Shown one piece after another: positions 2,599 to 12,181 of a DNA stretch of 35,237 nt. This DNA comes from Candidatus Moraniibacteriota bacterium (lineage in GTDB: Bacteria; Patescibacteriota; Minisyncoccia; Moranbacterales; UBA9337): positions 225,163-260,399 of the forward strand of contig JALSQF010000010.1 of NCBI GenBank assembly GCA_026985555.1, given 5' to 3'. The translations under genes were made by a program, and so were the position numbers. Positions within the stretch are counted from its first letter, which is position 1. Each line of letters opens with the position of its first letter. Under the pieces are notes generated by a model that was not told the DNA's origin, did no database searches, and saw only the letters and a program-made list of their open reading frames with translations.

Positions 2599-2790
2599 TG
2601 TGGACAATAATTGAAAATGCGCTAACCTTTTTTGAGCGAAACTCCTCTGACGTTTCGCTCAAAAAAGGTTGCTTTGATTTTGTACCACCATATGATTTTA
2701 CCGTTAAATTCCTAGCGAGCCGCGCCGCAAGGCGCGGCGAGCAAATAAGACAATCCACATCTAAAAATTTGCAAAATCTAATATGGTGGA
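2599..2790. other. Candidate structured element / small repeat
   Basis: 19-bp perfect inverted repeat (2624-2642/2652-2670), GC-rich 8-bp stem with GCAA loop (2719-2738), CCACCATAT (2685-2693) complementary to ATATGGTGG (2781-2789), TGTGGA (2599-2604) complementary to TCCACA (2754-2759). No known family assigned. Confidence 0.4.
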
Positions 2791-2860
2791 CGATACTGGA
2801 TTCGAACCAGTGACCTCTTCTTTGTAAGAGAAGCGCTCTAACCAGCTGAGCTAATCGTCC
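2784..2860 (-). tRNA. tRNA-Val(TAC), CCA encoded
   Basis: Minus strand GGACGATTAGCTCAGCTGGTTAGAGCGCTTCTCTTACAAAGAAGAGGTCACTGGTTCGAATCCAGTATCGTCCA+CCA; anticodon loop CTTACAA. Confidence 0.94.
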
Positions 2861-3849: not shown

Positions 3850-4224
3850 CTAAACCTGGACTATCAAAATAGCAGGTGCAATACGAAAAGCTATATAAGA
3901 ATGTAAACCTATGCCAAAAATTAATCCACTTGTAAAAAATATTAAATGAGCAGTAAATTTCTTAGATTTATTGTTTTTGGAGAAATGTTTATGTAAATAA
4001 TGCCATCCTAAAAATAAAAAATAAAAAGAAAAAACTAAAACAACCGGAAGTAAAATAGCTCTAAAAGCAATCCGAGAAAAATTAATGGCAGTAAAAGAAA
4101 AGGCTATAAAATAAGAAGTTAATAATCCTAGATACCAATTTTTTCTAAAAATTTCGTAGGTTAATAGAAAAGGTATTAAGTTATAATTATGTATTACTTT
4201 TTTAAAATAATTAAAAACAACGCT
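3850..4224 (-). pseudogene. Remnant of GT39/ArnT-like polytopic glycosyltransferase
   Basis: 124-codon stop-to-stop frame without ATG/GTG/TTG start: ...NYFKKVIHNYNLIPFLLTYEIFRKNWYLGLLTSYFIAFSFTAINFSRIAFRAILLPVVLVFSFYFLFLGWHYLHKHF...AHLIFFTSGLIFGIGLHSYIAFRIAPAILIVQV*. Confidence 0.55.
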
Positions 4225-4249
4225 TTAAAGCGTTGTTTTTAATTATTTT
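4204..4249. terminator. Perfect 46-bp palindrome, probable (bidirectional) terminator downstream of dnaK
   Basis: AAAATAATTAAAAACAACGCTTT/AAAGCGTTGTTTTTAATTATTTT with T-rich arm ends. Confidence 0.75.
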
Positions 4250-11828: not shown

Positions 11829-12016
11829 AAAATATTTTTTAATAAATAATAATTCTTTTATAACTCTTTTTTCTTTTAAAATCAAATAACTATACGGAAT
11901 AACTATCTGTAAGCACTTCCATTGAACTGAATATTAATTTAATTTTCCAAAAATAGAAAGGTATCTATAAAATTTAATTTTTAAAATCTACTTTTTTCTT
12001 TAAAATACTATCACTC

Positions 12017-12074
12017 AATCTTTCTGGCTATTTAAATATCCATTTAAATGGATATTTAAATAGCCAGAAAGATT
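12017..12074. repeat. Perfect 58-bp palindrome, long copy of a dispersed palindromic repeat
   Basis: AATCTTTCTGGCTATTTAAATATCCATTT/AAATGGATATTTAAATAGCCAGAAAGATT, no spacer; shares arms with 1887-1922. Confidence 0.85.
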
Positions 12075-12181
12075 TTTTTAATGAATATTAAGTTATTGTT
12101 ATTTTAGCTGTCTAATTTCTGGATTGCTTATTCTTTATTATCAAATTATCTATATAAAATATTTTTAATGTCTTAAAAAAT

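Follow-up and report, generated by a model that had tools for sequence, protein, structure and literature searches.

Within the analysed stretch of DNA from a Candidatus Moraniibacteriota bacterium (35,237 nucleotides, henceforth the window), a minus-strand tRNA-Val(TAC) gene, which comes after tRNA-Leu(GAG) and lies downstream of the gene for ribosomal protein L19, is directly followed at its 3' side by an island of hairpins (about 2600–2790). The question raised by this locus is what the island represents, i.e., an RNA gene, a set of terminators, or a mobile element. An earlier note, made from the sequence without database searches, had suggested a structured RNA or a small dispersed element. 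The island is regarded here as probably being what is left of an integrative element that a large serine recombinase inserts at tRNA 3' ends, or a minimal, non-autonomous version of such an element; a relic or mini-element is proposed because the recombinase gene is missing.

All inverted repeats listed in the note were recovered, namely a perfect 19-bp repeat with a loop of 9 nt (2624–2642 and 2652–2670), a GC hairpin with an 8-bp stem (2719–2738), TGTGGA (2599–2604) with TCCACA (2754–2759), and CCACCATAT (2685–2693) with its inverted partner ATATGGTGG (2781–2789). Taken together, these repeats exceed chance; by our own estimate, a window of such composition should hold only about 1e-4 perfect inverted repeats of 19 bp with a short loop. 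The elevated local G+C content was confirmed as well, with 0.37–0.47 over 2600–2799 (100-base windows) against 0.13–0.28 over 1800–2600 and 0.278 for the whole window. Two features had been missed in the first reading: ATATGGTGG covers the last 6 nt of the tRNA-Val gene, and a direct repeat, GTGGAC[AG]ATA, is present at both island edges, 186 bp apart. Read as parts of a recombinase element, the locus would be composed as follows:

2600–2609, plus strand: predicted left junction, GTGGACAATA, the direct-repeat copy at the border between host DNA and tail 1 (repeat comparison)
2601–2645, plus strand: predicted tail 1, a C-terminal coding tail of the recombinase, reading WTIIENALTFFERNSS (tail profile and translation)
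2652–2684, minus strand: predicted tail 2, inverted, reading YKIKATFFERN and forming the 19-bp palindrome with tail 1 (tail profile)
2685–2701, minus strand: predicted inner end arm, GTAAAATCATATGGTGG on the minus strand, an inverted copy of the recombinase 3' end that continues into tail 2
2702–2771, no strand assigned: predicted spacer between the end arms, the place of the recombinase gene in intact relatives, holding the GC hairpin and most of TCCACATCTAAAAATTTGCAAAATC
2772–2789, plus strand: predicted outer end arm, CAAAATCTAATATGGTGG, abutting the tRNA with an overlap of 6 nt (intact elements overlap the tRNA by 4–8 nt)
2784–2860, minus strand: tRNA-Val gene, anticodon TAC, the putative insertion target (ARAGORN and Rfam RF00005), whose 3' end points at the island
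2786–2795, plus strand: predicted right junction, GTGGACGATA, the direct-repeat copy inside the tRNA 3' end, where the crossover meets the tRNA (p about 0.005 for the direct-repeat score versus shuffles)

The reference for this division was obtained from intact elements in related Patescibacteria. In total, 30 recombinase loci from the order were compared, 13 of them closest (12 readable) and 17 more distant. The recombinases of the clade carry the Pfam domains PF00239, PF07508, and PF13408 (Resolvase, Recombinase, zinc-ribbon), and inverted repeats of 78–155 nt around the recombinase gene were found at 11 of the 12 readable close loci, at none of the 17 distant loci, and at 2 of 71 control loci. 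Many of the repeats flanking the close loci are 95–100% identical, and the element was found in several genera of the order. One of the two repeats is formed by the recombinase gene's own 3' end, and its outer edge overlaps the 3' end of a tRNA gene by 4–8 nt at eight loci (Ser, Val, Arg, Gly, and Lys tRNAs). Hence, the protein ends in antisense tRNA, e.g., WR/KGRDSNPRG, where the slash marks the junction. The other repeat lies upstream of the gene in inverted orientation and leads into another C-terminal extension that brings a stop of its own, e.g., WR/CVLDNVRMYFELNPDDEP-stop; this extension matches the tail profile described below at five loci. The two contexts of the repeat part at one sharp point, presumed to be the crossover. 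In G014, a further copy 2.7 kb off faces the first and begins exactly at this divergence point, suggesting that it may be the far end of the element. A composite transposon between the two G014 copies was considered and set aside; the intervening 2.7 kb hold three genes without Pfam match, and the recombinase lies just beyond. The genome of the window has one recombinase of the clade (L127, 3220–4686, contig G000:C3), which is split by a frameshift and has inverted repeats of 155 nt with 74% identity. A description of the clade was not found in the open-access journal literature searched. In two genomes (G001, L059 at about 1715–2012; G006, L062 at about 1674–1971), a small GIY-YIG nuclease-like ORF was observed immediately after tRNA-Ile; behind it comes a further copy of the tRNA 3' half, which would fit an insertion that duplicated the tRNA end.

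The link between the palindrome and these elements is given by its arm, AACCTTTTTTGAGCGAAAC, of which single, non-palindromic cousins were found in relatives and in the genome of the window. All seven cousins have the common flanks GRACGAARYTCGAAC...TTTGAGCRAAA and read in frame as LDEVRTFFEQNPE-stop. The arm is identical at 17 of 19 positions to the cousin on contig G000:C3, which is located 240 bp upstream of the large serine recombinase gene and beside tRNA-Ser, and at 18 of 19 positions to that in G038. Substitutions in the tail fall mostly on third codon positions (heterozygosity of 1.24, 2.04, and 3.11 at positions 1, 2, and 3), F/Y swaps are conservative, and the tail carries on the recombinase frame across the junction; by this pattern, the tail is protein coding. 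A profile over all loci matched tail 1 at an E-value of 5e-5 and tail 2 at 0.002. A profile built without the window and the copy from its own genome matched the window arms at E-values of 0.004 and 0.018 (the next match in the window was at 1.7) and recovered the own-genome tail at 2e-8. The profile E-values are partly circular, as the first members of the tail set came from the window arm as query. The copy number of the tail repeat is one or two per genome. In several solitary copies, the tail is followed by a module whose G-tract loop, GGAAGGGGGTTGGGGGGAAGG, may form a G-quadruplex and is closed by the stem GGCGGGCAAAAA/TTTTTGCCCGCC. This module was seen at L106, L107, L108, L111, and L112 (G038, G030, G019, G020, and G046, respectively), and an identical 46-nt stretch of the module is shared by G038 and G046, which belong to different families.

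Comparison of the island with the intact elements showed the same geometry at the tRNA. The outer end arm overlaps the tRNA 3' end by 6 nt, within the range of the eight intact loci; an inverted arm copy is followed by the C-terminal tail (E-value 0.018), the arm being short and the tail degenerate; and the presumed crossover core is found at both edges in direct orientation (at 2600 and 2786). The end arms enclose no gene for a large serine recombinase, and no recombinase ORF was found at 2600–2790. Both facing tails of the palindrome read TFFERN. The junction from arm into tRNA is CAAAATCTAATATGGTGG/ACGATACTGG (translated IWW/TILDSNQ), that from arm into tail 2, in inverted orientation, is GTAAAATCATATGGTGG/TACAAAATCAAAGCAACCTTTTTTGAGC (IWW/YKIKATFFERN), and that from host DNA into tail 1, at the far edge, is GTTGTGG/ACAATAATTGAAAATGCGCTAACCTTTTTTGAGC (W/TIIENALTFFERN). 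A single frame rule fits these three junctions together with those of relatives (WR/YCLDEIL, WR/CVLDNV, and WS/CFYAQA). Of the two overlapping ORFs, 2598–2813 on the plus strand and 2555–2758 on the minus strand, which the note had taken for by-products, the former does not fit that description: it begins with the recombinase C-terminal tail (WTIIENALTFFERN) and ends in antisense tRNA (WTILDSNQ), like the recombinase genes of relatives. Among the 31 tRNAs of the genome, the tRNA-Val of the window has the best combined signature of inverted and direct repeats, and the second-best (C10:111711) was an ordinary terminator hairpin. Every hairpin of the island, save the GC hairpin of the spacer, thus appears to land on a predicted part: ATATGGTGG and CCACCATAT would represent the two end arms, and the facing tails would make up the perfect palindrome. 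The suggestion of a small dispersed element is accordingly retained in modified form, the repeats matching the ends of serine-recombinase elements and the island being read as a derivative without integrase at a tRNA 3' end.

The 70-nt spacer with the GC hairpin and TCCACATCTAAAAATTTGCAAAATC (2754–2778) can be assigned to the element only loosely. TCCACATCTAAAAATTTGCAAAATC is shared only with G004 and G035, where it lies beside tRNA-Val in both. The motif GATTTTGCAAAWTTTTAGA...GTG was initially suspected to be an att core or a dif-like site, a view that was dropped; among about 85,000 genomes, just two others contain it, beside tRNA-Val in both and inverted in one, and it probably belongs to the same element family as the island. 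At the tRNA-Val loci of G004 and G035, the test for inverted and direct repeats gave no convincing signature. In viral contigs, one motif was unmatched and the other had four unrelated matches. The orthologous tRNA-Val/tRNA-Leu/L19 locus of G004 (Candidatus Elulimicrobium; L011, 370–660) was seen to carry a GC-rich hairpin island with the G-tract module and the motif GATTTTGCAAAATTTTAGATGTGGA.

In the mode of action general to serine integrases, recombination of the element's own site with a tRNA 3' end would spare the tRNA on insertion, because the element end rebuilds its 3' terminus. In the intact relatives, the crossover site would lie within the 3' end of the recombinase gene, so that integration would join the gene to the tRNA, read antisense, and the second, inverted site copy upstream of the gene would retain the uninterrupted tail (LDEVRTFFEQNPE-stop). 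In the window, an element may have entered at tRNA-Val and may then have lost the recombinase gene between its inverted end arms as well as the cargo between the facing tails. What would be left behind is, in order, host DNA, tail 1, 9 nt, inverted tail 2, inverted arm, spacer, arm, and tRNA-Val; such deletions would leave a palindromic scar. The empty tRNA-Val locus would correspond to TTATAGTTGTGG directly joined to ACGATACTGG. The anatomy of the island, the sequence match of its tails, its geometry at the tRNA, and the architecture conserved among relatives are observed; the succession of steps, the gene loss, and a crossover at the GTGG core are inferred. We consider the island to be an int-less relic or mini-form and not a functional member.

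A structured RNA, one of the two options of the note, taken as a non-coding RNA gene or riboregulator beside tRNA-Val with a plus-strand transcript, is quite unlikely. The region is locally G+C-rich, the GC hairpin has a GNRA loop on the plus strand, and the fold of 2590–2790 is very stable, its RNA folding energy being better than that of all 200 dinucleotide shuffles on either strand. However, the z-scores are almost equal (−8.3 on the plus and −7.8 on the minus strand), which follows from the palindromic nature of the features, and no strand preference was seen. Rfam, which the note had named as a check, returned only tRNAs in the window at gathering thresholds, and at relaxed thresholds eukaryotic microRNA models on the hairpin, all below their cut-offs. 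The whole island had neither a second copy in its own genome nor a homologue in 56 relatives (short matches only), and in relatives the palindrome arm belongs to a coding tail. Ordinary transcription terminators of the tRNA-Leu/tRNA-Val operon, whose leftward course leads into the island, would account for strong hairpins just downstream of tRNA genes and are an unlikely alternative: the terminator scan made no call at 2600–2783 on either strand, although it did call stems with T runs at 1887–1922 and 1688–1717, and the T run of the 19-bp repeat lies within the stem, not after it.

REP elements of the REP/RAYT system are intergenic palindromes (PMC3733652), and a REP/BIME-like repeat spread by a RAYT (Y1) transposase would share with the island its palindromic, intergenic nature and the presence of family copies elsewhere in the order, where RAYT-size Y1 proteins were found in 33 of 57 genomes. 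This reading is largely refuted: the genome of the window has no PF01797 match and no Y1 transposase, the repeats adjoin serine recombinases rather than RAYT genes, no GTAG/CGTC tag was seen, the tail is coding, the island palindrome consists of two coding tails, and one or two copies per genome are seen, not dozens. We regard it as highly improbable. There is, finally, the view that chance palindromes in an AT-rich spacer and a GC-rich insertion of other origin have come together, unrelated to recombinase elements. It draws on the shortness of each matched segment in the window (two of 19 nt, and end arms measuring about 17 nt) and on the 70-aa ORF, which in a protein search of 131 genomes of the order matched only itself. 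Very little probability is given to it, as the 19-bp repeat is long and perfect, and tails, arms, tRNA overlap, direct repeat, and reading frame all fit intact elements simultaneously.

Read as a derivative of a serine-recombinase element, the island can be set against known systems. Large serine recombinase elements of the phiC31/Bxb1/TP901 type have the same domain set as the clade (PF00239, PF07508, PF13408) and likewise have site-specific junctions at one crossover core with the element between the halves of the host site. The clade differs from them in that the crossover sits in the recombinase gene's own 3' end, that many different tRNA 3' ends serve as targets, and that an inverted site duplicate of 78–155 nt lies upstream of the gene; the window copy lacks the recombinase gene, and its direct repeat exceeds the core of 2 bp that serine integrases usually have. 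SSV-type archaeal tyrosine integrases have their attachment site in the integrase gene and a tRNA target, so that integration alters the gene. The clade resembles them in all three respects, whereas its enzyme is a serine and not a tyrosine recombinase, only the C-terminal tail is swapped, and the site persists intact in a second, inverted copy. MITEs and Correia/BOX-type mosaic elements are short and non-coding, have inverted ends and hairpins, and can be mobilised only in trans, if at all. The island shares their shortness, non-coding nature, inverted ends, and hairpins, and would likewise be movable only in trans, if at all; its ends, however, derive from the attachment region of a serine recombinase instead of the terminal repeats of a DDE transposon, and the copy number of its family is very low.

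A broader proposal is made only tentatively, and we think it rather doubtful at present: in a clade of Patescibacteria serine recombinases, the gene may be flanked by a pair of inverted attachment sites, both lying in copies of its 3' end. On integration, for which several tRNA 3' ends would be open, the C-terminal tail would be swapped for antisense-tRNA codons, and the spare inverted site would keep the intact tail and could allow inversion of the gene segment; the island would then be a natural mini-element of little but such sites, movable in trans. An attachment site that lies within the gene of the recombinase and is duplicated in inverted orientation, together with many tRNA targets, appears to be a novel variation on a familiar type. 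The recombinase-element reading of the island would account for a class of spacers in tiny, AT-rich genomes that follow tRNA genes, are spiked in GC and rich in hairpins, and are easily mistaken for RNA genes. It also points to a little-described clade with the 3' ends of many isoacceptor tRNAs as targets and an attachment site present in a second, inverted copy. Serine recombinases with multiple targets are attractive for genome engineering, and the junctions described here are testable candidate attachment sites.

Other palindromes were observed in the window. The hairpin TTTCTGGCTATTTAAAT...ATTTAAATAGCCAGAA occurs at two distant terminator-like sites (1887–1922 and 12000–12091), the second within a 92-nt palindrome, and a perfect 46-nt palindrome (AAAATAATTAAAAACAACGCTTT/AAAGCG...) lies at 4204–4249, just downstream of a dnaK-like gene.
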